From NCBI RefSeq assembly GCF_000270285.1, contig NC_015738.1, positions 3,059,672 to 3,123,671 on the forward strand: a stretch of 64,000 bases of DNA. Reading direction: 5' to 3'. Shown here in pieces: positions 7,275 to 37,007 of this stretch (position 1 is the stretch's first letter; every line of letters starts with the position of its first letter). A program made the position numbers and the translations under genes. Under the pieces are notes generated by a model. The model worked only from the letters and a program-made list of their open reading frames with translations. It ran no database searches and was not told where the DNA came from. Origin of the DNA: Eggerthella sp. YY7918. GTDB lineage: Bacteria > Actinomycetota > Coriobacteriia > Coriobacteriales > Eggerthellaceae.

Positions 7275-7607
7275 CTATCCGACGATGATATCCAAGATTT
7301 CCTTCGCGAACGTGATGACCACGCCGCCCGCCAGGGTCAGGAAGCCGTTGGCGCGCTGGGACGGGTCGTGGCTCTTGAGCGACATGCCCACCTGCACCAC
7401 GCCGAAGCCGAGCAGGATGAGCCCGACGCTCCTGATGAGCCCGAAGATGAACGTGGAGAGGTTGTCCACCGCCGCTATCGGGTCGGTCGCCGCGAACGCG
7501 GCGGGCGGCTCCAGCGCCAAGGCCGAAGCGGCGCAGACGGCGATTGCCGCCATGAGCCGCGCGCGGGCTGCGGGGCGGGCCTTCTTCCCCTCAGTGGTCT
7601 TTCTCAT
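7275..7607 (-). CDS. VirB2/TrbC-like pilin-type small membrane protein
   Basis: 110 residues from ATG 7607 (GGAG nine bases upstream). It has a signal-peptide-like N-terminus ending near AAFA-A, then two hydrophobic helices (about residues 50-70 and 85-105) joined by a short polar loop KSHDPSQRANG. That hairpin topology with a cleavable signal is the VirB2/TrbC arrangement. It sits between virD4 and the TrbL-like gene and overlaps the virD4 stop by 17 bases. Whether it forms a pilus or only part of the channel is unknown in Gram-positive systems. Confidence 0.75.
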   Translation of the reverse strand: MRKTTEGKKARPAARARLMAAIAVCAASALALEPPAAFAATDPIAAVDNLSTFIFGLIRSVGLILLGFGVVQVGMSLKSHDPSQRANGFLTLAGGVVITFAKEILDIIVG

Positions 7608-9411: not shown

Positions 9412-10274
9412 CTGCCCTCCGACCTGTCGCGCCGCCTTTCGGGCGGGGCCATGCGCTCCGACACGTCGCGCGCGGCCTTGCCGATCTCGCCCAAGGCGTC
9501 CCTCACCTCGCGCGCGCTCGCTTCCGGTGGCGCGGGCGCGGCGACGGCTCCCGAACATTCGAGTCCCAGGCGGCGGGCGGCTATGCCCGCCGCGAGGTCG
9601 GCCTTCGCGGCGTGCGTCTCCCTGTCGTAGGCATCGAGGCCGAGCGCCATGCTGGCATGCGCCGCCTCGACTATCAGCGCCGAGAGCAGCTGCGGCTCAT
9701 CGAGCCCTCGCTGCACCCGTATGGCCCCCGAGGCGTGATCGTACTCGGCGGGGACGCCGCCGAGGTCGTCAACCGGCTCTATTCTCGTCGGCGAGCGAGC
9801 GACCAGCGCCGCGAGCGCGGCGTGAGGGTCCACTCTGCGCGGCAGGCATGGCCGCGCGGTGGTCTGCGACACGTCGAACACCTTGCGCACGTCGTACAAG
9901 ACGCCGATGCTGCCGTCGTCGCGCACGTACTCCTTGACGGGTTCGATGATGGGGATCGCCTTCTGCCCGCGCCTCACCGACGCTCCCTGCCTGCGCCAAT
10001 GCTCAGCCGTGCCGACGCGCGTCGCGTTCGGTATGCGGTCGGCTATGAGCAGGATGTTCGTGGCGGAATGGTGGGGCAGCTGCGCCGCCACCCGCATGTA
10101 CGTCTCCAGCGCCGCTGGATCCGAATTCGCGCGCAGCGCGGCGGCGTCGGCGCGGTCGAATGCCTCTTGGCGCTCGCTCTGCTTCCGCTCCGCCCACGCT
10201 TGCTTGTCGAACTCGCCTTCCGGCGCGAATTCCCGGCTACTGCGTTCTTCCATCATCCGGTAGATATCTTGCAT
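9408..10274 (-). CDS. ArdC-like single-strand DNA-binding domain protein
   Basis: 288 residues, ATG 10274 behind AGGAAGG. The central part (about residues 55-135) carries the ArdC N-terminal pattern: LPHHSATNILLIADRIPNA, GTAEHWRRQGASVRRGQKAI and a DVRKVFDVSQT segment. ArdC-type domains bind single-stranded DNA and are thought to protect the incoming strand from restriction. The C-terminal zinc-metalloprotease part of full ArdC is absent or unrecognisable; only a single AALIVEAAHASMALG-like helix resembles it. It lies between pcfB and virD4, so it is probably made together with the transfer machinery. Confidence 0.75.
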   Translation of the reverse strand: MQDIYRMMEERSSREFAPEGEFDKQAWAERKQSERQEAFDRADAAALRANSDPAALETYMRVAAQLPHHSATNILLIADRIPNATRVGTAEHWRRQGASVRRGQKAIPIIEPVKEYVRDDGSIGVLYDVRKVFDVSQTTARPCLPRRVDPHAALAALVARSPTRIEPVDDLGGVPAEYDHASGAIRVQRGLDEPQLLSALIVEAAHASMALGLDAYDRETHAAKADLAAGIAARRLGLECSGAVAAPAPPEASAREVRDALGEIGKAARDVSERMAPPERRRDRSEGR

Positions 10275-15085: not shown

Positions 15086-16012
15086 TTGGCGGTGACTTCC
15101 ATGAACACAAAAGGGCCGAAAAAGAAGAAGCAGCATTACGTTCCGAAGTTCTACTTGCGTGGGTTTTGCGGGAGCGGCGACACGGTGTTCGCGCTAGATA
15201 AGGAGTCGGGGGGAATATTTACACCCTCGGTTGGCGATTTCTGTGCGGAGAGGTACCTGTACGAATCCCTATCGAACGACCCCAACTGGTACAAGGGGAA
15301 ATTCGTCTATCCGAACTACACTGAGGACGGCCTCTGCGAACTGGAGAGCGCTTTTGCCCCCGTCCTGAAAAGGGTGGCGGCCCTGTGCGTGCCGAACGCC
15401 CCGTTCACGTGCGTCGGCGATGACGACGCGAGAATCATCGCGTCTTTTGTGGCGAATGCGATTGCTCGCCATCCCAGCGTGTTCAAGCCCCTCCGGAATG
15501 AGCTTATGTTGTCGGCTTCGGAAGAAGACCTCTCTCCGTATCGCGACCTTATGAGGGCTCTGGGGCACGAGGGCGCGTTCGAGGGGGTGGCGGCGGAAGG
15601 CGTCACGCGCCGCCTGCTGCTAGATACGGGCGACGGGTCCTACCAAGGGCTCATCGTAGGAGAGCTGCTCGAAATGGAGGGGATCGTCCTGCGCGCGCCC
15701 GGGTGCGCCTCGTTCGCCACCGCGTCTTTCCCCGTCCTCCCCGTTGTTCGGGAAACAGGGGGGCGGGATCGCCTCTCCTCTCTGTACTGCCCTATCAGCC
15801 CGAATGCGGCCGTCATCTACGGCCCCGGCCCCCGTCGGGGGATGGGAGGTTGCGAGCTGCTCGGCGCGCGCGATGTCGTCAGGCTCAACGCCGCCTACTT
15901 CGAGGCGGACTTCGTCCGCTTCGTCGTAGCGAAGGACAGGCGGACCCTGGAAGAGGCCCGCTCTTTCGCCGAGGCTAAACGGCCTTCTCCACCCTCTCGC
16001 CGATCCATTTGA
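15086..16012 (+). CDS. DUF4238 domain protein
   Basis: 308 residues from TTG 15086 (GGAG six bases upstream) or 303 from ATG 15101. The N-terminal half is typical DUF4238: KKKQHYVPKFYLRGFC, then FALDKESGGIFTPSVGDFC and RYLYE. The family occurs widely on mobile elements and in defence islands, but its biochemical activity is not established. It follows the Abi_2 gene on the same strand after a terminator, and runs 38 bases into the 3' end of the convergent cytosine methyltransferase gene. The C-terminal residues RRSI come from that overlap and may be a by-product of insertion. Function: unknown. Confidence 0.75.
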   Translation: MAVTSMNTKGPKKKKQHYVPKFYLRGFCGSGDTVFALDKESGGIFTPSVGDFCAERYLYESLSNDPNWYKGKFVYPNYTEDGLCELESAFAPVLKRVAALCVPNAPFTCVGDDDARIIASFVANAIARHPSVFKPLRNELMLSASEEDLSPYRDLMRALGHEGAFEGVAAEGVTRRLLLDTGDGSYQGLIVGELLEMEGIVLRAPGCASFATASFPVLPVVRETGGRDRLSSLYCPISPNAAVIYGPGPRRGMGGCELLGARDVVRLNAAYFEADFVRFVVAKDRRTLEEARSFAEAKRPSPPSRRSI

Positions 16013-17318
16013 CGACCGGGACGGCCATGGCGTTTCCGAGGGCTTTGTAACGACGGCCGTCCGGAGCCGGCTTGCCGCGGAACTCCACGTTCGTCCAGTT
16101 GTCCGGGAAGCCTTGCAGCCTCTCGCACTCCAACGGCGTGAGCCGCCTGACCGCCGGACCCTGCAGGACGTGGCTCGCCTGCTTGACGCCGGGATGCGCG
16201 GCGAGCGCGCCCACGTGGCTGCCCGACCCGCCGACGAAGCGCACCTCGTCGCGCGTGTTCTGGGCGAACGCCGCGACGGGGCCCACGCACGACGGGGAGC
16301 CGCCCACCTTCAGCGTGCCCGCCAGGTCCACGTCGCACGCCGCGTTGGCCGCGTCCCCCGAAAGGCACGCCATGGGCGGCCCCTTGGCGGCGTTCGCCGT
16401 GAGGCACCCGCACAGGCCGTCGCCCACGTGCGCGTTCGCATGGGTGGACGCGAGGCACAGGGCCTCGCGCGGCGGCCCGCCCGCAGGCAGGGCCACGGCG
16501 TGGCGGTCGGCGGCGGTGAGGGTGTACATGCCTTTCTCGTCGGGGTCGCAGAAGCCCGCGCCATTGCCCCCGTTTTCAGGCTTTCGGCCTATGGAGTTGC
16601 CAACGATGCCGTAGACGGCGGGCGCGTGCCAGTCGGCCGTGAGGGTGGGCGATTGCTCGGCGGCGTGGCCTACCGACCCGCTGGCGGGGGCGGCGGAGTA
16701 CTTGAAGCCTGCCGTTCGAGCGCCTCCTCCAGCTGCGGCGGCAAGGAGCGCCCTCTTCTCCTTGCCCGGCGGATGATCCCAGCGCATGCAGTGGGGCTCA
16801 AATAGTACCTCGCAGGCACGGGCGGCGCTTCCAAGCACTCCGACAAGAAAGACACGCTCGCGTCGCTGGGCCAAGCCGAAGAATTGCGCGTCCAGAATTC
16901 TCCATGCCAGACCGTACCCGACCTCATCCATCGCCCGGAGCAGGCATCGGAAAGCCTCCCCGTTCTCGCTCGAGAGCGCTCCCGGGACGTTCTCCCAGAC
17001 AAAGCATCTCGGCATGACCTCACGTACAGCTCGAATAAATTCGAGCATGAGGCCCGACTCGCCTTTGAGCCCCGTTCTCTTTCCGGCGACGGAAAAGCTC
17101 TGGCACGGGCTTCCGCCGATGACAACGTCGATCTCGCCACGCATCTCCTTCCACTCGACCTTCGATATATCTCCCAGGTTGGGCACGCTCGGGAAGCGAG
17201 TAGCGAGAACCGCGTTGCAGAACGGGTCGATCTCGCTGAAGGCGACCGCCTCCCAGCCGAGCGGCCCCCACGCGCAGCTCGCCGCCTCTATGCCTGAGAA
17301 AAGGCTCACGTACCTCAC
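15975..17318 (-). CDS. DNA (cytosine-5) methyltransferase
   Basis: 447 residues from GTG 17318, overlapping the upstream stop by four bases (GTGA). All the main motifs are seen: I (SLFSGIEAAS), IV with the catalytic Cys (GGSPCQSFS), VI (WENVPGAL), VIII (QRRERVFLVG), IX/X near the end (LTPLECERLQGFPDNWT and GNAMAVPV). The target-recognition region of about 170 residues between VIII and IX is long. No restriction endonuclease gene is adjacent, so this is an orphan methylase, probably shielding the element from host restriction. It closes a run of three methyltransferase genes. Confidence 0.93.
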   Translation of the reverse strand: MRYVSLFSGIEAASCAWGPLGWEAVAFSEIDPFCNAVLATRFPSVPNLGDISKVEWKEMRGEIDVVIGGSPCQSFSVAGKRTGLKGESGLMLEFIRAVREVMPRCFVWENVPGALSSENGEAFRCLLRAMDEVGYGLAWRILDAQFFGLAQRRERVFLVGVLGSAARACEVLFEPHCMRWDHPPGKEKRALLAAAAGGGARTAGFKYSAAPASGSVGHAAEQSPTLTADWHAPAVYGIVGNSIGRKPENGGNGAGFCDPDEKGMYTLTAADRHAVALPAGGPPREALCLASTHANAHVGDGLCGCLTANAAKGPPMACLSGDAANAACDVDLAGTLKVGGSPSCVGPVAAFAQNTRDEVRFVGGSGSHVGALAAHPGVKQASHVLQGPAVRRLTPLECERLQGFPDNWTNVEFRGKPAPDGRRYKALGNAMAVPVVKWIGERVEKAV

Positions 17319-17860
17319 GAAGCCCCCTTCCCGCCGCGCGCTGCGGCGTTGGCTATTGACGACACCTTGCCGGGGGCGGCGCCCTCCCCGAACACGGCGA
17401 CCATGCTCGGAAAGGGCGCGGGGCCCTGAGCGACGCCGGCGAGCTCGAACCTGATGCGGCCGCGAACGAGCCTTATCTCTGCATGGCCGAGGATGTAACG
17501 GAGGAACCACTCGGTGTCCGTGCGCGCCGCCACCAGCAGCGCGACCGTCGTGCGCGGCTTGGCGCCCTCGATTGCCGCCTTGCGCGCCCATGCCCCGACG
17601 CCCCGGCCGTAGGGCGGATTCACCCACACTCTCTCGCCGCCCCAGTCAGCCGCGAGCCCGTCGTCTCGTTTGGTGAGGTGCCTTTCGCATTTGGCGTTGG
17701 CGTCCGAGCTCGCCGCGTCAAGGGTGAAGTGGAACTCGGAATCGAGCGCCGAGAACAGCCACGCGGGGGTCTCCCAGTCGTCGCGCGCCGACGAGAAGGC
17801 CGCCCCGCCGGCGCCGGTGAAGCCGCCTGGCGGCGCTGCTGCCGCGCTTTTCACCGGCAT
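17315..17860 (-). CDS. Phage-type DNA N-6-adenine methyltransferase
   Basis: 181 residues from ATG 17860. The similarity to the small phage Dam family is clear: SARDDWETPAWLFSALDSEF, FTLDAASSDANAKC, and the catalytic motif VNPPYGRG (NPPY). The protein transfers a methyl group to the N6 of adenine. The family lacks its own endonuclease and is common on phages and conjugative elements. It overlaps the neighbouring genes on both sides (10 bases upstream, 4 downstream), so the three methylases form one translationally coupled block. Confidence 0.88.
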   Translation of the reverse strand: MPVKSAAAAPPGGFTGAGGAAFSSARDDWETPAWLFSALDSEFHFTLDAASSDANAKCERHLTKRDDGLAADWGGERVWVNPPYGRGVGAWARKAAIEGAKPRTTVALLVAARTDTEWFLRYILGHAEIRLVRGRIRFELAGVAQGPAPFPSMVAVFGEGAAPGKVSSIANAAARGGKGAS

Positions 17861-18632: not shown

Positions 18633-21600
18633 TCACCGTTCGAACTCCTTTTTCTTTTCGGCACGTTCCGGCTCATGACCGTCGTCGCACAGCTGCTCGG
18701 GGCCGCTTTTTCCCACGTCGAGCAGGGCGTCGAGCTCCGCGAGGCGGGCGGACTTCTCTTTCAGCTCGCCTTCGTGGGGAAAAGGTTTGGTGGCCTCGGT
18801 GCGCGCAGCCTCCATCTGCCTGCGGGCTTCTTCGAGGCGCGCGCGGCACTCGTCAGCCTCCGCGCCCATCTTGGCGATGGCGTTGTCCAGCCTCGTCACG
18901 GCGCCTGCCGCATCACCGCCCAGCTCGCATTTGTGCTCGGCTTCGCCGACGATGCGCATCTCGAACGCCGCGCTCATGCGGTCGAACGTCAACTCCAGGG
19001 AGAACCCCCGGTACGACCCGAGCGGCATGGCCCCCGTCTCGGTCATCTCGCCGCGCGCCGCGAGCACCGCCTCGCCTGCCGCCGCACGCTCCCGGAAGGC
19101 GGTGCCGCGCACTTCCATCGAAAATGCCTCCTTCGTCGGCGGCGGGTTCGCCCTTGCCTTCGCGACATCGGCCTCCAGCGATTCGAGGCGCGCCGACAGC
19201 GACGCCATGCGCTGCGGGTAGTCCTTGGCGGCCTTGTCCTCCAGCGCGTACTTCTGCGCTAGGTGGTCGGCCTTCAGCATCCGCAGGCGGGACACCTCGA
19301 CATCGAGGCCCATGCGCTCCTTGACGAGCGGGTTTCCCGTGGCGAGCGCTTTGAGCTCGGCGTAGGAAAGCGCCGCCTCGTCAACGTCGGCGGCTGTGCG
19401 AACGGGCGACTTCGAGGTCATGACCTGCGCTATGAATCGCTGCTTTCCCTCTACGAGCTGGTAGAGGTACGCGTCGAAGGTGCCTTCGGTGACGTAGCGG
19501 TACGCCTCCACCTCGGCATTCATGTTGCCCTGGCGCTCGATGCGCCCGAGGCGCTGCTGGAGGTCGGCGGGGCGCCACGGGCAGTCGAGGTCGTGGATGG
19601 CGGCGAGCCTGCGCTGCACGTTGGTGCCCGCGCCCATCTTCTGCGTGGACCCCATGAGGATGCGCACGGCTCCGGCGTTCACCTTCCCGAAGAGGGCGAG
19701 CTTCTTCGCCTCGGTGTCGGTGTCGTGGATGAACGCCACCTCGCCCTCGGGCACGCCGCGCGCCACGAGCTTGCGGCGCAGATCGTCGTACACGTTGAAG
19801 GACCCGTCGCCCTTCGGGGTGGAGAGGTCGCAGAACACGAGCTGGGTGAGCCTTTCCTCGGCGCCGTCGCGCCATATGCGCAGCACGTTCTCGCAGCAAG
19901 CGTTCACCTTGCTGCCCTCGAAGTCGGGCAGCGCGGGGTCGGCGAGGCGTTGGTCGAGGGCTATCTTGCGGCCGTCGTTGGTGATGAGGAGCATGTTGTC
20001 CTTCTCGGCGGGCACACTGCCCGCCCTCACCGCCTCGGCGCGCTCGGCGAGCCCCGCCACCAGCTCGCGCTGGACGGGGGAGGGCTGCACCGCCACGTTG
20101 CGCAGATGCACCTTGGGCGTGGGAAGCGCCAGCGTGTCCGCCGTCTGCACGTCGGCGACCTGTTTGAACATGGACATGAGCTCGGGTAGGTTATAGAAGC
20201 GCGAGAAGCGCGTTTTCTGCCGATAGCCCGTGCCTTCGGGGGCCAGCTCCAATGCCGTCACTGTCTCGCCGAACGTGGACGCCCAGCAGTCGAAGTGGGA
20301 AAACCCCAAGCGCTCCAGCTCGCCGTATTGCAGGTAGCGCTGCATGGTGTAGAGCTCCGCCATCGAGTTGGACACCGGCGTGCCCGTGGCGAACACCGTG
20401 CCGCGTCCGCCGGTCTGCTCGTCGAGGATGCGGCACTTCATGAACAGGTCGGAAGACTTCATGGCCTCGCTCTGGGCGATGCCGCTGACGTTTCGCATCT
20501 TGGTGTGGAAGAACAGGTTCTTGTAGTAGTGGGCCTCGTCCACGAAGATCCGGTCGACGCCGAGCTCCTCGAACGTGAGCACGTCGTCCTTGTCGGTTTG
20601 GTCAGCGAACTTGGCGAGTCTCACGTTCAGGCGCTTCTTCGTGATCTCCATCTGCTTCACGCTGAACCGTTCGCCGTGCTGCGCCTTGATCTCGGCTATG
20701 CCGTCGGAGAGCTCGGCGATCTGGCTCTCTATGAACGCTCGCTGACGCTCCACCGATACGGGTATCTTCTCGAACTGGGTGTGCCCCATGATCACGCCGT
20801 CCCAGTCCCCCGAGGCGATGCGGGCGCAGAAGCGCCTGCGGTTGCGCCGCTCGAAGTCGCGCTTGGTGGCCACCAGCAAATTGGCGGCGGGGTAGAGCCT
20901 CAGCCATTCCGACGCCCACTGCCCCGTGAGGTGGTTCGGCACGACGAACAGGGGCTTGGAGCAAAGCCCTATGCGCCGCAATTCCATGGCGGCCGCCGCC
21001 ATGGTGAATGTCTTGCCCGCTCCCACCTCGTGGGCGAGAAGCGCGTTTTTCCCGTAGAGGATGCGGGCGACGGCGTTTCTCTGGTGCGGCCTCAGCTCTA
21101 TCTCGGGGTTCATGCCGGGAAACGCCAGGTGCGAGCCGTCGAACTCGCGCGGGCGGATGGCGTTGAACCGCTCGTTGTAGGCGGCGACCAGCCTCTCCCT
21201 GCGCGCCTGGTCTGAGAACACCCACTCCTTGAAGGCCGCCTTGATGGCCTCCTGCTTGGCGAGCGCCACCGCCGTCTCCTTCTTGTTGAGGACGGGTTTC
21301 TTCTTGCCGTTTTCGTCCTCGACGTAATCGACCACGCGCGCGTCCTTGAGGTTGAGCGTCTCCTCGATGATGTGGTAGGCGCTCATGCGGCGCGTGCCGT
21401 AGGTCGACAGCGCGCGCACGTTCGAGCCGTCGCGGCCCTTGCCCTCGATGCGCCACTGCGCCGTGGCGGCGGAATACCTCACGGCCACCTGTTCGCGGAC
21501 CCAGTAGGACGGGTCGAGCAGGTGGAGCACGAACTCACGCACGTCGTCGGCGGGGATCCACGTCGCTCCGAGGCGCACGCTTATCTCGGCCGCCCCCAAA

Positions 21601-24600
21601 TCGGGCGGCTGGGCGCAGCGCAGCGCCTCGATATTGGGAATGTACGAGGGGTCGGACGCGGCCGTCAGCTCGGCGATGCGCAGCTTCGCCCGCACGTTGC
21701 CGGAGAGGTATTCGTCGGCGGGCTGCCAGACGGGCTGCTCTCCGGTCGCCGTGGGAACGCGGAATATGGCGCCTTTCAGCGCTTCGGCCAGTTCGTTTTC
21801 CCCCATTCCGGTCAACCTCGCCATGTAGGGCAGATCGACCCGTCCGCGTTCAGACAGCGAGGCAGCCAGCGCCGCCTGGGGGTCGTCGGCGTGCGTCACG
21901 GGCGCGTTGGGCCGTATCGTGCGCTTGGAGAACATGTCCGCCTTGCGCTCGAAGTTCCCCTCGCCGTCGAGGATCTCCAATGCGCACAGCAGCGGGTAGG
22001 AGGAATCCTGCTTGAGCGCGGCGGCGTTCGCGCGCGAGTTCAGGATGCCGTGCTTCGCCGCGTAGGCGTCGTAGAGCGCGTTGAGCCTTGCGCGCTCAGC
22101 CTCCACCTCCGCATCGGGCGCGCCGTCCTTTTCGAGCGTTATGAGCCGTCGGGCGCAATCCCGTAGGGGGATCATTCCCCCGATTCGCTCAGCGGCCGCC
22201 TTCGAGGGATTCTGCCGGTGCATGAGGGGACCCATGCGGAAGTAGAGGGCGCCGCCAGATTCGGCGTAGGACCAGTCGCGCACGTCCGGGTCTGCGGGGA
22301 TGGCGTCGCCGGGCTCGCTTTCGGGCGCATCCCATTCGGGGATGCGGGCGGTCATCTTGCCGAGGGCTTCGCGCAGCGCTTCTTCCAAGTCGGTGCCGGG
22401 CTTCGGCCTGCATTCGGAGTCCGCCCGCCCGTAGGCGTTCGTCGTCGCGGCGAGCTCGCCGAGCACCATGTCGGGGTGGGATGCGAAGTAGGAGTTCACG
22501 TCGATGCCCGCCTCGACGCGCTCGGTGTGCGCCCATTCGGGCTCGCAGACCTCGGCGCGCTCGCGCTTCTGGAGGATGACCACGTCCGCCGTGACTTCGG
22601 CATGCGGCGAGAAGGCCGTGTTGGGCAGGCGGACCGCTCCCACGAGCTCGGCGCGCTCGGCGATCCTTCTGCGGGCGGCGGGATTCTTCTTGTCGAGCGT
22701 GCCTTTGGACGTGACGAAAGCCACGATGCCTCCCGGCCTCACCAAGTCGAGCGCCCTCGCGAAGAACCAATCGTGCACGAGCAGCCCCTCGTCCCGATGG
22801 CGGGGATCGTCGACCTGGTAGCTGCCGAAGGGCACGTTTCCCACCGCGACGTCGAACGATTCGTCGTCGAGGTCTGCGTGCTCGAAGCCGCCGTGGATGA
22901 TCTCCGCGGACGGATGGAGGGCGCGGGCGATGCGCGCGGTCAGGCCGTCGAGCTCCACGCCGACGAGGCGGCAGCCCGCAAGCGCCTCCGGCATGGCGGC
23001 GAAGAACGCGCCCGTGCCGCATGACGGCTCCAGCACCCTGCCGCCCGAAAGCCCCATGCCCCGGATGGCCTCCCATATGGGGCGCGCGATCTCCTGCGGG
23101 GTGTAGAACGCCGTGAGCGTGGAGGCGCGCGCCGCCGCGTACTCCCCGTCGGAGAGCAGCTGGCGCAGCCGGGCCTTCTCGTGCGCCCATTTCCCCGATT
23201 CCTCGTCGAACGCGTCGGCGAGGCCGCCCCAGCCCACGTAGCGCGCGAGCGCTTCGCGCTCTGCGGCGTCGGGCGGGCGGCCTTCCCCCTCGACGGCGAC
23301 GAGCGCTTCGATGGCCGCGATGTTGCCGCGCAGCCGCCCGAGCGGGGTGGCGAGCTGTTCGGGATACTCATTTGCCCCATCGTCGAACGAGAAAGCCAGC
23401 TGGCCCCGTTCGGGCGGCTTTGCCTCGGAACGGCGGGAGGCGGGCTTGTCGCCCGCCTCCCTTCGGCTTGTCTTGGTTTTCTCTTGGCCGCGCTGCTTTT
23501 CTAGGCGTACACGACCTTCATCGCCGCCGCTTCGCGGGCCGCTGCCGCCGCCTCGGCCATCTTCGCCGCCCACGCTGCCGGATCCGCCACCTTCGCCGCT
23601 TCGTCCAACCCCCTGCTCTTCGCCACGCGGGCCGCCAGGTCGTCCGCCATCGCCTCCGCGAGGGCTTCCGTCTCGGCCAGGTGCCTCGCCAGCGCCCCCT
23701 GCGCCAGCAGGTCCGCCCGCAGCTCGGGCTTGCTCGATCTCAGGTATTCGTCCCTCATCAGCGCGAACGGCCCCAGGTTCGCCGCCGCTTCCTCTTCCGT
23801 TGCCAGGGTCGGCAGCAGAAGACCACCGCCCTCCCTGTACGCCATCTCCATCGCCTCTCCTTTCATCGGGCTCTTTTGCCGGATTATGGACGGCGGCGGC
23901 CAAGGGCGCAAACGTGCGATGGGATGCTTCCGGGGCTCTTTCCCGCATCGCGGGGGCTATCGTGCGCAGGACGGCTGCGGCGGCGCTTGCCGTGCGGCAG
24001 CCGAGCGCGTTCATCGCCCGGACCGTGCCGAACATCGGCAGGGCGTCCGCCGCGCGCGGCGTGATGAGCGCGCCGCCTTCGATGCCGCAGCGCGACGCCG
24101 CCTCGTAGGCGGCAGATGCCGCCGCGAGCTCCAGAAGCAGATCCCCGGCCTCGGGGGCTTCGAGGCGTTCCAGGCCGCTTCCGCCGCGCGCTTCCCCGAT
24201 GGCCGCGACGGCCGATTCCGCGTTTTCGCGTACGGCGGCGCTCGCCGCCTCGGCGATGGCCTCGATGGTGCCTTTCCTGGCATCAGCCCCGAAGGATTCA
24301 TGGAGGGCGCCGACGATGGCCGCCTCCTGCTCCGGGCCGCCAGCCCAAAGCGGCAGCGGGCGGGCGGCGCGCCCGGGCGCCGTGTCCGACACGTCGAAGT
24401 AGTAGCGCAACCGCCCCGTTCCCGGGGCTCCGAACACGGCGATTCCGACTGATCCGCGCTTCACCCGCCGGCCGAACAGGGCATCCCAGCGCTCCAATTC
24501 CAACACCGCCTTGGCGTCCGGGCGCTGCGCGTGGACGAGCGCCTGCTCCGGGAAGGGCAGCTTGTAGTTGCGGCCCGCCGATTCGAGGAACGCCTTCCAC

Positions 24601-24674
24601 GCCTCGGGGCTTTCGCTCAAAGCGACGAGGGTCGTTCGGTAGAGTTCTTCAATGGTCCGGTACGTGCTCGCCAC
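18633..24674 (-). CDS. Giant N6-methylase/SNF2 helicase of conjugative elements
   Basis: 2013 residues from GTG 24674 (GAGGAGGT upstream). The order of parts: an N-terminal domain (1-100, [18 protein letters not shown]) typical of these proteins; helical region to ~260; a Gly/Arg/Pro-rich linker (~265-400); an N6-adenine methylase-like domain with [12 protein letters not shown] (~550) and GNVPFGSYQ (~614) in place of NPPF; a central region; a SNF2-type helicase with Walker [11 protein letters not shown] (~1217), DEAH (~1379) and motif [15 protein letters not shown] (~1710); and a C-terminal coiled coil. It is found in Tn1549-like ICEs and is probably involved in processing or protecting transferred DNA. 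The linker is overprinted by the tnpV-like gene in another frame. Confidence 0.93.
23501..23851 (-). CDS. tnpV: TnpV-like protein, embedded out of frame in the giant helicase gene
   Basis: 116 residues from ATG 23851, six bases after AAAGGAG. The protein resembles transposon-encoded Tnp[50 protein letters not shown] and a C-terminal [18 protein letters not shown] ending in VVYA. The reading frame is on the same strand as the helicase but shifted, and covers helicase residues ~275-391, exactly its low-complexity linker. The strong ribosome site and the protein-like composition argue that this frame is real and that the linker is the passive one. TnpV's function is unknown in Tn4451 and its relatives. 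Confidence 0.75.
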
Positions 24675-24965: not shown

Positions 24966-27257
24966 TCATCGGATCTCGGGGATTTCGCGCTCGCCGAGTT
25001 CTTCGGCGTCCTTCTCGCGGCACCGCTTCATAGCGACGGCAAGGCATCCGAAGCCGGCCGCCGCGATGGCGGCCGAGACGGCGGCCAAGGGCGCGAGGTT
25101 CACGCCGGTCTTGTCGAAGGGCTCGCCCCCTTCGACTGCGGGCGCAGGGGTCGCCTCGTCCTCCATGGTCACTGTCTGAACGTCGCCCGTGGCCTCGACC
25201 TCGAATTCAACGTCCTCCGCCAGCTCATAGCCCTCGGGCGCGCTTTCCTCGTGCAAGGTGTACGTTCCCGGCGCGAGCTTCTCTATGCGGTGGGGCTCTT
25301 CGGCGGAAACCCACTCCTCCACCACGGCGCCCTCGGCGTCGAGCACCTGCATGGCCGCCCCGGAAAGCGGCGCGCCCGTTTCCGCGTCCACCTTCTCGGC
25401 ATCGACCTTGGTGAAGTCGTCCTCCATGGTCACCTTCTGGGAAACCTGGCCGGACACCACCTCGAAATCCACGCTGTTTGCGACCAGGTAGCCCTCGGGG
25501 GCGATCTCCTCGCGCAGGGTGTAGGAGCCCTCGTCGAGCACGATCTCGTGCGGCTCTTCCCCGGACACCCATTCGTCCACCACGTTGCCTTCGGCGTCGG
25601 TCACTTGGAGCGTGGCGCCCGGAAGCTCCTCGCCCGTCACGATGTCGGCTTTGGAGATGGAGACGTGCGGCTTGTCCGAGTTCACCAGCGTCCCGAGGTC
25701 GATGGTCGCGCCGTCTCGGTACACGCTCACCTCGAACGCGGGGATGAGTTCCCGGTCGGCGTTCGCCTCGCAGGGCTGCTCTTCCACGATGTAGGCGTCA
25801 TACGGCAGCGCGCCCAAGGCGTCGTCGGGCTCCCCGCCGCCGAACCACACGCCGGACTCCGCCGTGCCGCCGTTGGTGTCGGCGGTGTGGGGGTTCCACG
25901 ACGCGGCGGTGGATGCGCAGCCGTTGGCGTCGGTGACGATGGTGTGGCTTTCTCCAGTGGTGGCGCTGGTGACGAGGAACGGCACGCCGGCCATGCGGCC
26001 TTGGTCGCCCTCGCCGACCTTCACGAGTTTCAAGTCGCCTCGGATGACCTGCTCAGTGAGCTCGTCGGCCACCTCGTGTTCGAAAACGGGCGATTCGCTG
26101 CCCGCCATGTCCGCTGTGACGGTTATCTCGTGGGCCTCGGGGTCGGGCAGGTAGCCGGCGGGCGCTTTCGTCTCCTTGATGGTCACGGTGCCGAGGGGGA
26201 TGCCCTCGAAAGGCAGCTTCGAGTTCTCCACGACGCCCTTCGCGGTCACGTATTCGCCGCCGTGAAGGTAGGTGGCCTCGTACTCCGCGCCGTCGAGAGA
26301 TGCGGCTCCCTGTGGCTCGGGCAGCAAGGTTTCGGCGTCTTTCTTGATGAGCGTGAGATTCACCGTGACGGGGGCGTCTTGCGCGTTCACGTGAACGTTG
26401 CCGCCGGCGACCGTCACGTGGAACTCCTCCTGGGAAAGCGCGTAGCCCGCTGGCGCGCTGATCTCGCGCACGACGTAGTCGCCGTTGGGCAGCTTCTCGG
26501 AGGTCTGCCCGTGGCCGCTCTCGTCGGTGGTGAACTGCGCCACGAGGCTTCCGCCCTGGTAGACGCCGTAGACCGCGCCGGCGAGCGTGTACTCGCCGTT
26601 GCCGGCCGTCACCGACGCATCGGCGCTCGTCTTGTCGAGCGTGACGAAGCCGCCCTCGGACAGCCCCCTGTACACGGCGAAGCTGGCGTAGGTCTTGCCG
26701 TGCCCGCCGTCGATGCCCCACATGTAGTCGAATCGCACGTTGCAGGTGCCGAAGTGTTCGCTCCATGCGTGATAGACCGTTGCGCCTTCGCCCGCGATGG
26801 CGCAGTGCACGGTGGCACCCGACGCGTTGGAGAACACGATGACGTCGCCCGGCTTCACGGTTCCCGCCGCGAACGCGGCGTTGTAGTCATCCGCCGACGA
26901 GCCGCGGAACGTCTCGTGCGCGGCGCAGAACGCCGCGATGGCGTCCGTTCCGCAGTTGCCGGGGCTTCCGCCGGGCCAGCTCAGCCCGTAGACGTTGGCG
27001 ATGACCCAGCCGACGAACCCCGAGCAATCCCAGCCCGAGGTGCCTTTGCCTCCCCAGACGTAGGGCGTGCCCATCAGGTCTTCTATGCCGCCTTTCACTT
27101 CCTCCCAAGTGGCGTCGCTGAGCGAGCCGTCTGCCGCGTATGCCGCTTGGCTGCGCGAAGGAAGCCCCGCGAACACCGCCGCCGCGACGAGGAGGGCCGC
27201 GAGCATGCAGCGGATTATCTTGCCCGCAGCGCGGCCGTTGGTTGCCTGTGCTTTCAT
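24966..27257 (-). CDS. Sortase-anchored surface protein with NlpC/P60 hydrolase and SpaA/Cna-B repeats
   Basis: 763 residues, ATG 27257 behind AAGGAG. It has a signal peptide (1-~42), an NlpC/P60 domain (~50-200) with WDCSGF (Cys78), VHCAIA (His151) and His163, then prealbumin-like SpaA/Cna-B repeats, among them two close copies ending REEIAPEGYL and HEESAPEGYE. The C-terminus has a sorting signal-like EPFDKTG, a hydrophobic helix and a basic start to a longer charged tail. It should be displayed on the wall by the sortase encoded just upstream. The hydrolase could remodel peptidoglycan during mating, and the repeats could act as a stalk or adhesin. The tail of ~20 residues after the helix is longer than usual. 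Confidence 0.88.
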   Translation of the reverse strand: MKAQATNGRAAGKIIRCMLAALLVAAAVFAGLPSRSQAAYAADGSLSDATWEEVKGGIEDLMGTPYVWGGKGTSGWDCSGFVGWVIANVYGLSWPGGSPGNCGTDAIAAFCAAHETFRGSSADDYNAAFAAGTVKPGDVIVFSNASGATVHCAIAGEGATVYHAWSEHFGTCNVRFDYMWGIDGGHGKTYASFAVYRGLSEGGFVTLDKTSADASVTAGNGEYTLAGAVYGVYQGGSLVAQFTTDESGHGQTSEKLPNGDYVVREISAPAGYALSQEEFHVTVAGGNVHVNAQDAPVTVNLTLIKKDAETLLPEPQGAASLDGAEYEATYLHGGEYVTAKGVVENSKLPFEGIPLGTVTIKETKAPAGYLPDPEAHEITVTADMAGSESPVFEHEVADELTEQVIRGDLKLVKVGEGDQGRMAGVPFLVTSATTGESHTIVTDANGCASTAASWNPHTADTNGGTAESGVWFGGGEPDDALGALPYDAYIVEEQPCEANADRELIPAFEVSVYRDGATIDLGTLVNSDKPHVSISKADIVTGEELPGATLQVTDAEGNVVDEWVSGEEPHEIVLDEGSYTLREEIAPEGYLVANSVDFEVVSGQVSQKVTMEDDFTKVDAEKVDAETGAPLSGAAMQVLDAEGAVVEEWVSAEEPHRIEKLAPGTYTLHEESAPEGYELAEDVEFEVEATGDVQTVTMEDEATPAPAVEGGEPFDKTGVNLAPLAAVSAAIAAAGFGCLAVAMKRCREKDAEELGEREIPEIR

Positions 27258-28367: not shown

Positions 28368-29306
28368 TCAGCGCTCGCGGGCGCGCTTCCTCTCGTGGCG
28401 CTCTAAGAGCTCGAGCGCCTTGACTATGCGGGCCTCCACGGCCTCCCTGCTCGTGCCGGGCTTGAAGAAACGCTCTATCTTCTCGCGGGGGATGCGGAAC
28501 TGTTCCACCTGGTTGGGTTTGCGCTCGCCCATGATGGACGCCATGGCTTCTCGCGACAGCGCGCCCTGCTCCGAGAGCCTGCGCATCCTGATCGCCTGGG
28601 CGTGGGACGGCGTGCACGCCTCCATCCCCATGGCGTCGAGCAGGTCGTCCTGCTCCCTTTCGGACAGATAGCTGATCTCCACGGCGGGGCGCATGGCCAT
28701 CGACCCGCCGTCCACCATGTCGAGCAGATCGGGGTTGAGGTGCGTGAGGCGGACGTAGCGCTGTACTTGGCTTTTGCTCTCCCCCGATTGTTCCGCCACA
28801 ATGTCGCGCGAGCGTGCGTTGGCCAACTTGTGCCCCACTGGGGCACAAGTCAAGTCGGAGCGGTACCCCTGCCGGCTCAGAGCGTCGATTTTCATCTTGT
28901 AGGCGAACGCTTTCTCGCTCGGCAACACGTTCTCGCGCTGGATGTTCGCGTCCACCATCGCGATGACCGCCTCGTCGTAGGTCATCTCCCGAACCACGGC
29001 GGGAAGGGCCTCCAGCCCCGCCATCTCGGCGGCGCGCTTGCGCCTGTGGCCGCTCACCATCTCGTAGCGCCCGTTCTCCTTCGGCCTCACGAGCGCGGGC
29101 ACGAGCACGCCGAATCTGGAAACGCTCTCGGCCATGTCGCGCAAGGCGTCGTCATCGACGCGGAAGGGATGGTCCGGGAAGGGATCTATCATGTAGAGGG
29201 GGATGACCCCCACTTTCTCGCAGCCCACCTCGTCGCGCTCGGCCTGCGTGGTGAACAGGTCATCGAGCGACGGCAGGTCGATGGGTATCGCGCTTTCTCT
29301 GGGCAT
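28368..29306 (-). CDS. ParB-family partition protein of the element
   Basis: 312 residues. The ParB/Srx nuclease-like fold shows IDPFPDHPFRVDDDALRDMAESV, the CTP-binding/arginine patch SGHRRKRAAEMAGL, and a helix-turn-helix region around RDIVAEQSGESKSQVQRYVRL. The start overlaps the parA 3' end by 47 bases. It resembles plasmid and ICE ParB proteins more than the chromosomal ParB at 56.5-57.5 kb. It probably helps keep the excised circular form; its binding site is not recognised, and no 16-base chromosomal parS motif occurs in the element. Confidence 0.88.
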   Translation of the reverse strand: MPRESAIPIDLPSLDDLFTTQAERDEVGCEKVGVIPLYMIDPFPDHPFRVDDDALRDMAESVSRFGVLVPALVRPKENGRYEMVSGHRRKRAAEMAGLEALPAVVREMTYDEAVIAMVDANIQRENVLPSEKAFAYKMKIDALSRQGYRSDLTCAPVGHKLANARSRDIVAEQSGESKSQVQRYVRLTHLNPDLLDMVDGGSMAMRPAVEISYLSEREQDDLLDAMGMEACTPSHAQAIRMRRLSEQGALSREAMASIMGERKPNQVEQFRIPREKIERFFKPGTSREAVEARIVKALELLERHERKRARER

Positions 29307-33638: not shown

Positions 33639-34253
33639 GTGTCCGAGCAAAAGACGGTTGTCGAGATAGTGCGCGGTGCAGAGCCGGGCACTCTTTTCGT
33701 AGCAGCTGATTTCGCAGACGCAGGCTCGTCCGCCTCCGTCCGAAAGACGCTCTCCCGCCTGGTTGAGTCGGGAAAGCTCGAGCGTCCTGTGCGGGGACTA
33801 TACCGCAAGCCTCGTCATAGCGCTTTCCTGAATCGGACAGTACCCGCAAGCCCAGACGAGATCGCTGAGGCCCTTGCACGGAAGTTCGAGTGGCAAATCG
33901 CCCCCTATGGAGACACCGCCCTGAACCGACTGGGAATGGATAGTCAGGTGCCCGCCGTCGTGCGCTACGTGAGCGACGGGCCGTATCGCACCTACGAGTA
34001 TGGGCCTTACACCATCGAGTTTCGACACACGGCCAACCGAGACTTGTCACGACTGAGCCCCGTAGCGGCCACAGTCGTCCAGGCGCTGAAAGCTCTTGGC
34101 AAGGACGGTGTAACGCAGGACAAGCTGGACGCCATCGCATCGAAACTCGACGATTCCCAACTGGAAGATTTGGAACAGCAAACACGAAACGCTACCTCAT
34201 GGGTGCGCAACGCCGTGAAGACAATGAGGCGAAGGAGATTGCAGAATGCTTAA
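33639..34253 (+). CDS. abiEi: AbiEi-family antitoxin
   Basis: 204 residues from GTG 33639, nine bases after AAAGGAGG; the frame is open further upstream but without a ribosome site. The N-terminal winged helix is seen in TLFVAADFADAGSSASVRKTLSRLVESGKLERPVRGLY. The C-terminal domain (AYGDTALNRLG-like and TIEFRHTANRDLSRLSP) matches the AbiEi family. The protein is a repressor of the operon and neutralises the AbiEii toxin by causing its modification in known type IV systems. It overlaps the toxin gene by eight bases. Confidence 0.88.
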   Translation: MSEQKTVVEIVRGAEPGTLFVAADFADAGSSASVRKTLSRLVESGKLERPVRGLYRKPRHSAFLNRTVPASPDEIAEALARKFEWQIAPYGDTALNRLGMDSQVPAVVRYVSDGPYRTYEYGPYTIEFRHTANRDLSRLSPVAATVVQALKALGKDGVTQDKLDAIASKLDDSQLEDLEQQTRNATSWVRNAVKTMRRRRLQNA

Positions 34254-35247
34254 ACTTTCCAGACTACCCCAAGAGGAACGTGCCGATGTCTTTGTTGCCG
34301 CAGCCAAAGAAAAAGGAATGCACCCAGCCATTGTCGAGAAGGATTTCTGGGTCTGCTGGACGCTCGATTATCTCTTCGGAGAATCGGGCTTCCGTGACTT
34401 TTTCGCTTTCAAGGGTGGGACCAGCCTGTCGAAGGGCTTCGGTCTCATAGAAAGGTTCTCTGAGGATATCGATCTCATCTTCGATTGGAGGCTTCTTGGT
34501 TATGGAATTGACGAGCCATGGGAAAAGAGGAGCAACACCAAGCAAGACGAATTCGTCGGCAAAATCAACGGCGATGCCGCACGCTTCCTCGAAGACGAAT
34601 TGATGCCGGAGATGCAAGCACATCTTGACTCGCAACACATTGTGGGATGCTCGCTCGCCATAGATGCCGGCGACCCCCAAACGCTTCGGTTTTTCTACCC
34701 GCAGTCCTTTTCTGATAATTCCATCCTGCAGGAAATTAGATTGGAAACAGGTGCGCTCGCGGCGTGGACGCCAACCACTGGGGTGCGCATTTCCCCCTAT
34801 GTTGTCGAGCAATTCCCGGAGGTATTCGAGAGCAAAGCCGTATCCGTTCGCACGGTTTCGCCAGAACGTACTTTCTGGGAAAAGGCGACGATACTCCATA
34901 AAGAGGCTTTTCGTACCAACGGTAGGTTTCCAACGAGGTACTCGCGGCATTATTACGACCTGTTCAAACTGGCTCAGTCGAATGTGAAACAACGAGCGCT
35001 AAATGACACCGGTCTTCTCAAAAGCGTAGTGAATTTTAAGATGACCTTTTGGCGTTCAAATGCCGCGAGATACGATTTGTGCGCGCCGGGAACACTGCGG
35101 TTGATGCCGCCAGAAGAAGCTATCGACCTTATCGAACAGGATTATGCCGCAATGAAGAACATGATCTTCGGTGATACGCCCGATTTCAAGACGATGATGT
35201 CGGGAATCCGCAATCTGGAAGATGAGGTCAACTTTTCTAACATCTAG
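34246..35247 (+). CDS. abiEii: AbiEii/AbiGii-family nucleotidyltransferase toxin
   Basis: 333 residues. The nucleotidyltransferase core is FAFKGGTSLSKGFGLIERFSEDIDLIFD, with GGTSLSK and the Asp-x-Asp pair that bind nucleotide and metal. Later signatures are RTVSPERTFWEKATILHKEA and RYSRHYYDLFKLAQ, as in other AbiEii toxins, which stop growth by modifying tRNA ends. Together with abiEi it is a complete type IV toxin-antitoxin or phage-exclusion module. The 3' end overlaps the convergent sirtuin gene by 11 bases. Confidence 0.9.
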   Translation: MLKLSRLPQEERADVFVAAAKEKGMHPAIVEKDFWVCWTLDYLFGESGFRDFFAFKGGTSLSKGFGLIERFSEDIDLIFDWRLLGYGIDEPWEKRSNTKQDEFVGKINGDAARFLEDELMPEMQAHLDSQHIVGCSLAIDAGDPQTLRFFYPQSFSDNSILQEIRLETGALAAWTPTTGVRISPYVVEQFPEVFESKAVSVRTVSPERTFWEKATILHKEAFRTNGRFPTRYSRHYYDLFKLAQSNVKQRALNDTGLLKSVVNFKMTFWRSNAARYDLCAPGTLRLMPPEEAIDLIEQDYAAMKNMIFGDTPDFKTMMSGIRNLEDEVNFSNI

Positions 35248-36229
35248 GAGGTTTGAAGCTCGTGTATATTTCGCAAGTCGTAATCTCTAATTTCAAAGCA
35301 TAGCGATCTTTTTTGCCGCAAGTACGTAGAAGGAGAAAAGCGTTTGATAGTACCTCGCCTATGTCGGCATCGAGCAGGATGGAACGCTCCTTGATTGCTT
35401 CGGGGGCGCAGGCTTCTCCTTTGTTTATGCAGCAATAGGTTGCGTGCTTGTTGCGTTTTACGGCATTCCAGAATGGGTATTTGATGATAACGGGAGTGTT
35501 CATTCCCACGCCGAGTTCGAGGTAGAGCACGTTTGCGTCCTCATAGGTTCGGCAGAAAGCGTGGTAGCGGGCGTTCGCCTTGTACCATTCCTCGTCTTGT
35601 ACGAAGCGATCGTCAATGCGCAGGTTGGTGGTCAGGGGGCTGCCGCAATGCGGACACCGCGGAATGAGGTCGCTCGGCACGCGCATGCCCTTTTGCCGCT
35701 CCACCATGGCGCGCACAGTCGCTTCGTTATCGTACGTTTCTTGCGTACAGGGGCCGCTGCACTGGAACAGGCCGTAGTCGCCTTGGGTGCAAAACAGCCT
35801 GCTCTCGTCGAAGCCCGCCAGATGAAACTGATGGTCCACATTCGTGGTTATGACGAAGTAGTCCTTGTCTCGCACCAGGTTGAACAGGTCGCGATAGGGC
35901 TTGCCTGGCTTCGCCTCGTAGCGATTGATAAAAATGTGTCGACTCCACCACGCCCAGAACGTCTCAGCATCGGGGAAGGGATAGAAGCCTCCGGAGTACA
36001 TATCAGTGATGCCAAAGCGGTCGCGAAAGTCGGCAAAATTCTTATCGAAGCGCTCACCTGAATAGGTCAGTCCCGCGGCAGTGGACATTCCTGCACCTGC
36101 GCCTATGAGCACGGCATCGGCCTCGCACAGGGCGCGGTGCAGACGATCTCTGCCTGCGGCCGTCTCGACTTCGCCGCCTTTGGCGCACACAAGTTGGCCT
36201 CCGGGAATGTTAGTCGAAAAGAAGTTCAT
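35237..36229 (-). CDS. SirTM: macrodomain-linked sirtuin (protein ADP-ribosyltransferase type)
   Basis: 330 residues from ATG 36229. Sirtuin NAD-binding motifs: LIGAGAGMSTAAGLTYSG, TTNVDHQFHLAGF. Where classical sirtuins have the catalytic His, this one has QGDYGLFQC, the Gln-type change known in class M sirtuins that ADP-ribosylate proteins. Zinc ligands are CSGPC and CPHCGS. The pairing with a zinc-type macrodomain is the known hallmark of this group, but the usual lipoyl carrier (GcvH-L) and ligase genes are absent. The last ~30 residues (beyond LSNAFLLLRTC) are unlike the family and read into the convergent abiEii gene, so the C-terminus may have been altered by insertion of that operon. 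Confidence 0.88.
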   Translation of the reverse strand: MNFFSTNIPGGQLVCAKGGEVETAAGRDRLHRALCEADAVLIGAGAGMSTAAGLTYSGERFDKNFADFRDRFGITDMYSGGFYPFPDAETFWAWWSRHIFINRYEAKPGKPYRDLFNLVRDKDYFVITTNVDHQFHLAGFDESRLFCTQGDYGLFQCSGPCTQETYDNEATVRAMVERQKGMRVPSDLIPRCPHCGSPLTTNLRIDDRFVQDEEWYKANARYHAFCRTYEDANVLYLELGVGMNTPVIIKYPFWNAVKRNKHATYCCINKGEACAPEAIKERSILLDADIGEVLSNAFLLLRTCGKKDRYALKLEITTCEIYTSFKPPRC

Positions 36230-37007
36230 AGTAGATTCTTTCGTCCTTCTCGCTGAACACGTTGAACACGATATGCATATGAGAGTGGTGGGAATCCAGC
36301 CACGTGCGCACGGCGTCAACGGCGATGGGTGCAGCTTTTGCTTGCGGAAACCCGAACACTCCGGTACTGATGCAGCAAAACGCGAGGGAGGTGCAGCCAA
36401 GACTTTCCGCGGCGTTCAGGCAGTTGGTATAGCTCTGTGCCAGAAGCTCTTCATCGCGCCTGGTCGGATGCCCGTTCGCGATGGGGCCCACCGTGTGAAT
36501 CACGAAGCGCGCGGGCAGGTTGTAGGCGGGCGTCACCTTGGCACGCCCCGTCGGTTCCTCGTACCCCTGCTCACGCATGAGCCGCGCGCATTCCGCGCGC
36601 AGCTGCACGCCCGCAAACGTGTGGATGGCATTGTCGATGCAGTAATGCCCGGGCACCCAGCACCCCAGCATCTGGCTGTTGGCGGCGTTCACAATGGCGT
36701 CGACCGCAAGCGTGGTGATGTCTCCCCGCCAGAGCGACAGGCGACTGTCCAGCGGAACGCGCGGCAGCGCGGCGGCGTCGGTGATGCCGGCATCTTCTAT
36801 CAGCCCCTGCAACACGCGATCTTGCGTGGCGAGGAACTCCTCGGAAGTCGGAAGGGGCTCGCGCGTGTTCACGAGATCGCGAAACTGCCGAAACAGCGCC
36901 TCTGCCCCAGTGGCGCTCTCTACGCCTGCAAGCTGAGGGGCGCCTTCGCCATAGCGCTCTTCAACAAGCGCACGCACGAGAAATACCAGGTCATCAGTCC
37001 TACCCAT
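36210..37007 (-). CDS. Zinc-dependent macrodomain ADP-ribosylhydrolase
   Basis: 265 residues. An N-terminal helical part (1-90) precedes the macrodomain: LWRGDITTLAVDAIVNAANS, LGCWVPGHYCIDNAIHTFAG, with Cys/His/Cys that bind zinc in this subgroup, then ARFVIHTVGPIANG and CISTGVFGFPQAKAA. Enzymes of this type remove ADP-ribose added by the partner SirTM. The gene is the first of the pair and overlaps the sirtuin start by 20 bases. A -10-like TATACT lies on the minus strand near 37127-37132, without a good -35. Confidence 0.92.
   Translation of the reverse strand: MGRTDDLVFLVRALVEERYGEGAPQLAGVESATGAEALFRQFRDLVNTREPLPTSEEFLATQDRVLQGLIEDAGITDAAALPRVPLDSRLSLWRGDITTLAVDAIVNAANSQMLGCWVPGHYCIDNAIHTFAGVQLRAECARLMREQGYEEPTGRAKVTPAYNLPARFVIHTVGPIANGHPTRRDEELLAQSYTNCLNAAESLGCTSLAFCCISTGVFGFPQAKAAPIAVDAVRTWLDSHHSHMHIVFNVFSEKDERIYYELLFD

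Follow-up and report, generated by a model that had tools for sequence, protein, structure and literature searches.

Sequence evidence for a tnpV gene nested in a second reading frame of a methylase-helicase gene in Eggerthella sp. YY7918 and in several groups of Bacillota

Can one stretch of bacterial DNA serve a very large helicase and a small protein of the TnpV family at the same time? The question is raised by a 64,000 nt sequence of Eggerthella sp. YY7918 (NC_015738.1, forward strand, positions 3,059,672-3,123,671), referred to here as the window, in which an ORF of 116 residues lies wholly within a gene of 2013 codons on the same strand (Table 1). Its ATG is found at position 23851, at an offset of 823 nt within the outer ORF, which places it in the +1 frame. 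Both frames are open along the entire inner gene.

The inner protein matches the TnpV family (PF14198) with an E value of 1.3e-19 and a score of 70.7 bits against a Pfam cut-off of 27, covering positions 2-110 of the 111 in the profile. NCBIfam contained no match to it, and neither the NCBIfam nor the PHROG search yielded a function for TnpV. A profile search of TnpV against solved structures returned a best match of E 0.15 and none below E 0.1. The GC content of the inner gene by codon position (0.744/0.513/0.88) is near that of the whole outer gene (0.693/0.493/0.856), and its start context reads AAAGGAGAGG-CG-ATG. A preliminary description of this DNA had proposed a tnpV-like gene in a shifted frame with a ribosome site of its own; the family match, the +1 frame and the Shine-Dalgarno site ahead of the ATG confirm, as far as sequence can, that the inner ORF is a tnpV gene nested in a methylase-helicase gene. 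Moreover, a second TnpV gene in the same genome (79570-79914), whose product is 57% identical to that of the window, is nested in the same relative frame. A tblastn search of plasmids with the TnpV of the window gave no match, whereas TnpV was detected when fetched plasmid loci were searched with profiles; a search with a single sequence therefore misses the inner gene.

Table 1. Positions in the window of the outer gene, its regions and the gene nested within it.
Feature	Positions	Strand	Basis
Outer gene, N6-methylase / SNF2-like helicase, 2013 aa, GTG start	18633..24674	-	PF02384 E 3.9e-11; PF04851 E 4e-9; PF00176 E 2.3e-7
Outer N-terminal domain, residues 1-270, ArdC-like at family level	23865..24674	-	Conserved in alignment A1
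Outer linker, G/R/E/D-rich, residues about 275-391, read from tnpV DNA	23501..23851	-	Open; sequence not conserved beyond third frame
N6-methylase domain, outer residues 511-706	22557..23144	-	Pfam
Helicase ATP-binding region (ResIII), outer residues 1191-1386	20517..21104	-	Pfam
Helicase_C region, outer residues 1644-1716	19527..19745	-	E 1.6e-4, 22.4 bits, just below Pfam cut-off of 23.5
Nested tnpV gene, 116 aa	23501..23851	-	PF14198 match; PHROG 24764 (function not assigned) E 5.6e-12
Shine-Dalgarno site AAAGGAGAGG of nested tnpV, within helicase frame	23854..23863	-	Sequence

The assignment of the outer N-terminal domain is made at the level of the family: the ArdcN profile PF08401 matches one of seven members (E 4.6e-4), and this member is not the domain of the window, for which there was no Pfam match. 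A profile search of the domain against solved structures gave no match under E 1. The profile of the aligned domains (A1) also matches ORFs of approximately 300 aa in Actinomycetota. Downstream of the domain, GC3 of the outer frame drops to 0.48-0.60 over residues 251-400, and outer residues of about 265-400, judged by eye in slices of 50 residues, make up the part rich in G, R and E. Among the 60 rows listed, two streptococcal plasmid copies are 63.6% and 62.6% identical to the helicase core of the window.

Conjugation genes share the stretch with the helicase (PF02534 and PF12696 at 7591-9558, a TraG P-loop at 3624-5933), as do a SpaA-like gene (24966-27257) and a ParB gene (28368-29306). 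By their predicted products, namely a coupling protein, a TraG-like ATPase, a SpaA-like protein and ParB, the neighbours of the helicase are those of a conjugative element, which the preliminary description placed among Tn1549-like elements. The stretch that holds this helicase, with its ArdC-like domain, also contains a separate ArdC-like ORF (9408-10274, minus strand, PF08401 E 1.2e-4). A gene for a C-5 cytosine DNA methylase lies near the helicase (15975-17627, minus strand), and dcm-annotated genes lie upstream of the helicase in four other loci (L195, L196, L197 and L198). Further along, two adjoining genes (35237-37007, minus strand) encode what we take to be relatives of a SIR2-family and a macrodomain protein, and the product of 34246-35247 (plus strand) presumably resembles an AbiEii-type nucleotidyltransferase.

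How widely the nesting occurs was assessed in loci fetched by the outer N-terminal domain alone, using queries whose end coincides with the tnpV start or lies no more than 17 bases from it. Ninety-seven loci were obtained in this way: six plasmid records with the domain of the window as the query, and 80 loci from genome_contigs and 11 from viral_contigs with A1, an alignment built from the six plasmid records. The genome_contigs loci are the best 80 of 520 relatives and include a 99% match (L014) on the chromosome of Adlercreutzia hattorii 8CFCBH1. The tnpV gene is nested in 85 of the 97 loci, that is, it lies in the +1 frame and the outer frame is open through and beyond it. Among the 12 uncounted loci, four run into the contig end (L019, L048, L099 and L104), and in the first three of these the beginning of tnpV is visible in the +1 frame up to that end. 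In four others (L051, L058, L077 and L097) a stop closes the outer frame shortly ahead of the overlap, and the contig end lies within about 240 bases; two (L056 and L072) have a single stop in the N-terminal part and an intact overlap; and L100, which gave no tnpV match, has an outer frame that stops at 236 residues. Also uncounted is a locus of Sporofaciens musculi (L084, 4001-5400), in which an insertion that carries a seemingly free-type TnpV cuts the nested tnpV early. Whether the loci truncated near the overlap share a single insertion site was judged by eye, and the idea was rejected.

Because the best 80 loci are those nearest to the query, a draw of 196 Clostridia genomes, spread evenly around a known carrier (G105), was added. 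A1 found matches in 55 of these genomes (G105 included), 100 in total, of which the 62 strongest, minus two short ones (G243:C74 and G205:C28), were examined; the 38 weaker matches had E values above 3e-18. Nesting was observed in 57 of these 60 loci, which may include near-copies, and in 52 of 55 once the five loci from G105, all of them nested, are set aside. The nested loci include two (L286 and L287) in which tnpV or the helicase is interrupted. The three that are not nested comprise one with a single outer stop within the overlap (L213), one that reaches the contig end (L285) and one that has no tnpV (L269). In L269 the N-terminal domain is in one open frame with what follows, and neither tnpV nor the G/R-rich linker is present.

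Eleven plasmid helicases were chosen for variety from 60 listed of 2010 helicase-core records. Seven are nested, those of Streptococcus agalactiae, S. suis, Anaerococcus, Virgibacillus, Selenomonas, Enterococcus wangshanyuanii and Listeria seeligeri, the weakest TnpV match being that of S. agalactiae (E 2.3e-5). An Aerococcus plasmid has the N-terminal domain and tnpV in their usual relation, with the helicase body in another frame; in this record, from Aerococcus tenax (L198, 2427-3656), either the frame changes after tnpV or the sequence contains an error there. The plasmid helicases of Sulfuricystis, Vallitalea and Lactococcus showed no match to the N-terminal domain or to tnpV. A draw of 198 Actinomycetota genomes gave 22 loci, of which two, both from the genome of the window, are nested; the other 20 are mostly ORFs of 260-600 aa without tnpV. 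Among kin of the window, TnpV was found in 3 of 99 other genomes, nested in one (L003) and not in the others (L004 and L006), and such a sparse distribution fits the expectation for a mobile element. The loci behind all these counts are related to each other and are not independent. Nevertheless, the arrangement occurs in helicases of several Bacillota groups besides the element of the window. The preliminary description had asked whether the linker of such helicases is always overprinted: it is so in most loci of the N-terminal, Clostridia and plasmid sets but not in all, L269 having neither linker nor tnpV. The contrary case that it named, homologous elements without a conserved inner frame, was not what we found.

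Substitutions were then compared by frame in pairs pooled into four bins of rising distance. The inner frame gave pN/pS values of 0.19, 0.24, 0.37 and 0.47, the third frame 0.99, 0.96, 1.09 and 1.08, and the outer frame in the overlap apparent values of 1.52, 1.59, 1.38 and 1.29. The outer N-terminal domain gave 0.13-0.40. The inner frame is under purifying selection. Amino acid identity of the outer linker in the same bins (0.851, 0.685, 0.507 and 0.360) does not exceed that of the third frame (0.856, 0.699, 0.523 and 0.370). A conserved sequence in the outer linker was therefore rejected, and the helicase appears to need an open stretch at this position and not a particular sequence. Comparison of the window itself with two loci (L015 and L016) gave identities of 0.57 for the inner, 0.43-0.44 for the outer and 0.46-0.47 for the third frame. 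Inner pN/pS in these comparisons is about 0.6-0.7, which points to weaker constraint in the branch of the window. At four-fold sites, the inner gene changes at 0.49-0.79 times the rate seen in the flank. This low divergence was entertained as a sign of additional outer constraint, but it mostly vanishes against free-standing tnpV genes: at matched inner identity, nested genes show 0.79-1.06 times the four-fold changes of free ones, and constraint on the outer sequence itself is thus weak or absent. The earlier suggestion that the linker drifts while the inner protein is conserved is borne out by the rates in both frames, and substitutions do not favour the outer frame.

These rates bear on whether the inner ORF is a gene at all or a shadow cast by the outer one. 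A shadow is conceivable insofar as the inner gene is known from sequence alone, but it would leave the strength of the PF14198 match, the low inner pN/pS, the conserved Shine-Dalgarno site and ATG and the existence of free-standing homologues without explanation, and we consider it extremely improbable.

The preliminary description had also stated that both frames stay open, and this was found to hold in the window and in homologous loci alike. Pooling gave 139 distinct nested loci, which form 88 clusters at an inner identity below 80% and 30 at one below 50%. They have no outer-frame stops, against 1905 in the third frame, although openness is part of the nested definition in this set, as in the comparison with free genes, and the zero is partly by construction. 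In a set of 86 nested loci the corresponding counts are 0 and 1149. Less biased are the sets selected by the N-terminal domain, in which one locus (L213) has an outer stop in the overlap and four have one just before it. As the nested class is defined by openness, the best control is provided by free-standing tnpV: 62 distinct free genes contain 283 stops in the matching frame and two of them are open, with GC bins in agreement. Moreover, when the inner proteins of 80 distinct loci are recoded with synonymous codons taken from their own helicase, 492 outer stops are expected and 1.4 loci should be open; with the codons of each gene shuffled, the expectation is 222 outer stops and 7.6 open loci. 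The inner genes across which the outer frame is open range in GC content from 41% to 72%. In the overlap, the outer frame is selected for the avoidance of stops.

Initiation signals were examined in the 86 nested loci. AGGAG or GGAGG precedes the best inner ATG in 81 of them, against 113 of 4528 (2.5%) other out-of-frame ATGs of the same genes, a comparison that somewhat favours inner starts as the best of several candidate ATGs was used per locus. The spacing from GGAG to ATG is 8 nt in 70 of the 86 loci and 5 nt in the window. In the pooled set, an ATG with a strict Shine-Dalgarno motif was found in 102 of 139 loci, divergent matches often stopping short of the start. The motif is likewise present within 40 nt before the start of the outer N-terminal match (82/84). 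By contrast, only 6 of 86 loci have an outer-frame start with a strict Shine-Dalgarno motif close to the stop codon of tnpV, and a separate start of the helicase is therefore not the rule. RNA folding around the inner start showed nothing unusual (z -0.57).

Two other readings of the locus were weighed. The first holds that there are three consecutive genes, an ArdC-like gene, tnpV and a methylase-helicase gene, that chance or base composition leaves the outer frame open, and that no fused protein is made. Two records are indeed annotated with TnpV plus a helicase of later start. However, composition predicts very few open loci over this range of GC, the free tnpV genes are riddled with stops in the matching frame, helicase starts near the tnpV stop are scarce, and L269 joins the N-terminal domain to the downstream part in one frame without tnpV. 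We therefore regard three separate genes as very unlikely. The second reading would make TnpV a product of frameshifting, in which a +1 slip in the N-terminal domain gives an ArdC-TnpV fusion, perhaps besides free TnpV. The constancy of the +1 relation would suit it, but the inner gene has an ATG and a Shine-Dalgarno site of its own, and inner-frame stops one codon (L011) and 13 codons (L009) before the inner ATG leave little room for a slip in those two loci. A frameshift origin is in our judgement highly unlikely.

Next, we consider the history of the pair. A tree was built from 154 TnpV rows. A single fork (95/93) contains 90 of its 92 nested rows, together with nine free rows, and the labels nested and free require 7 changes on the tree against 48.5 in shuffles; many of its forks are poorly supported, its root is arbitrary, and nested L003 and L012 sit on long branches outside the fork. 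Of 94 tnpV loci classed, 63 are free-standing. A match to one recombinase ORF, which we take to be a large serine recombinase, is found no further than 1.5 kb from 13 of these 63 genes, against none of 30 nested genes. Six of the 63 stand beside a helicase fragment; in these loci (L113, L117, L136, L140, L143 and L148) no more than 1.5 kb separates the free tnpV from fragments of the helicase core, a layout suggestive of mobilizable elements having inserted in the helicase gene. For the nested genes, a recent landing of a tnpV-bearing mobilizable element in the helicase gene might be proposed. Passages of PMC9815147 describe the insertion of TnpV-carrying elements into snf2 genes, and the interrupted locus of Sporofaciens musculi resembles such a case, but the nested copy keeps its place and frame in two phyla and nearly all nested rows share one fork of the tree with few free ones. 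We give a recent landing next to no credence.

As the TnpV family has many free-standing members, the outer linker may be a younger reading of this DNA than the inner gene. It is possible, though we would put it at somewhat less than an even chance, that tnpV is the older partner and that an upstream ArdC-like gene and a downstream methylase-helicase gene were joined through it in another frame to give the giant helicase. Consistent with such a reversal of the usual overprinting, the linker has no sequence constraint of its own, both tnpV and ArdC-like ORFs also occur alone, and three helicases (L199, L201 and L202) have neither a detected N-terminal domain nor tnpV. Moreover, L269, the only complete N-terminal locus without tnpV in the Clostridia draw, is also without the linker, although it may equally well represent a loss. 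The tree is unrooted and so does not fix the order of events. L269 is in either case a natural test of the role of the linker. If the joining did take place, a whole foreign gene became the linker of a protein, the join has been held across bacterial phyla, and TnpV and the helicase share a message as a result.

Taken together, homology, place, frame, openness, selection by frame, initiation signals and breadth lead us to conclude, with high confidence, that this is a true nested pair on one strand, in which a single message would give TnpV by internal initiation and the helicase by read-through of a linker encoded by tnpV DNA. A ribosome initiating at the helicase GTG would read through the overlap and yield one long protein, and a second one, initiating at the internal Shine-Dalgarno site with its ATG, would yield the 116-residue TnpV from the +1 frame; both proteins would thus be made from the shared DNA. 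Selection acts on the sequence of TnpV and, in the helicase frame, chiefly requires the absence of stops. For the helicase, the overlap would serve as a long charged tether, probably disordered, between the ArdC-like N-terminal domain and the methylase-helicase body, and the shared message would tie the production of TnpV in time to that of the helicase. TnpV itself may be an accessory in DNA transactions of the element; for its relative in Tn4451, a role in excision was postulated on the basis of homology with lambda Xis (passages of PMC3158075).

Such a pair bears on annotation. Public annotation lists TnpV at this position in Monoglobus, Cohnella and Selenomonas, with the helicase given a later start or absent from the (incomplete) table; the record of Ruminococcus albus pRUMAL02 gives the outer gene from the N-terminus on and omits the divergent inner gene. 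These single records suggest that annotation can trim the start of the helicase or miss one of the two genes. The pair also comes with comparative evidence, from the 88 clusters of inner genes under 80% identity in Bacillota and Actinomycetota, and amounts to a natural experiment in which one stretch encodes two proteins, one of them needing little beyond openness, with the free tnpV genes as built-in controls. We found no account of tnpV nested in a helicase gene in the portions retrieved of open-licence PMC full text, a corpus that excludes most subscription papers and all bioRxiv preprints.

Lastly, the pair can be set against known systems. The TnpV of the window belongs to the same family (PF14198) as that of Tn4451- and Tn6104-type elements; there, in the accounts available, it is an ORF of its own, whereas here it is nested in another gene. 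The helicase is by description of the same kind as the SNF2/COG4646 methylase-helicase of Tn5252- and Tn1549-family ICEs, for which excerpts of PMC7168690 describe mobilizable elements inserted in the gene, as opposed to a gene nested within it. The N-terminal domain family weakly matches ArdC antirestriction proteins (PF08401), but unlike ArdC it is tethered here to a methylase-helicase by an overprinted linker. Coding overlaps are called rare except in viruses in the abstract of PMC5696523, and few long ones are described as established in bacteria in the abstracts of PMC9927249 and PMC6294744. As with overprinted viral genes and the few long overlaps of E. coli described in such sources, two proteins are proposed for one stretch of DNA. 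The present pair differs in that free-standing relatives of its inner gene exist and in that it has been maintained on mobile elements across bacterial phyla.
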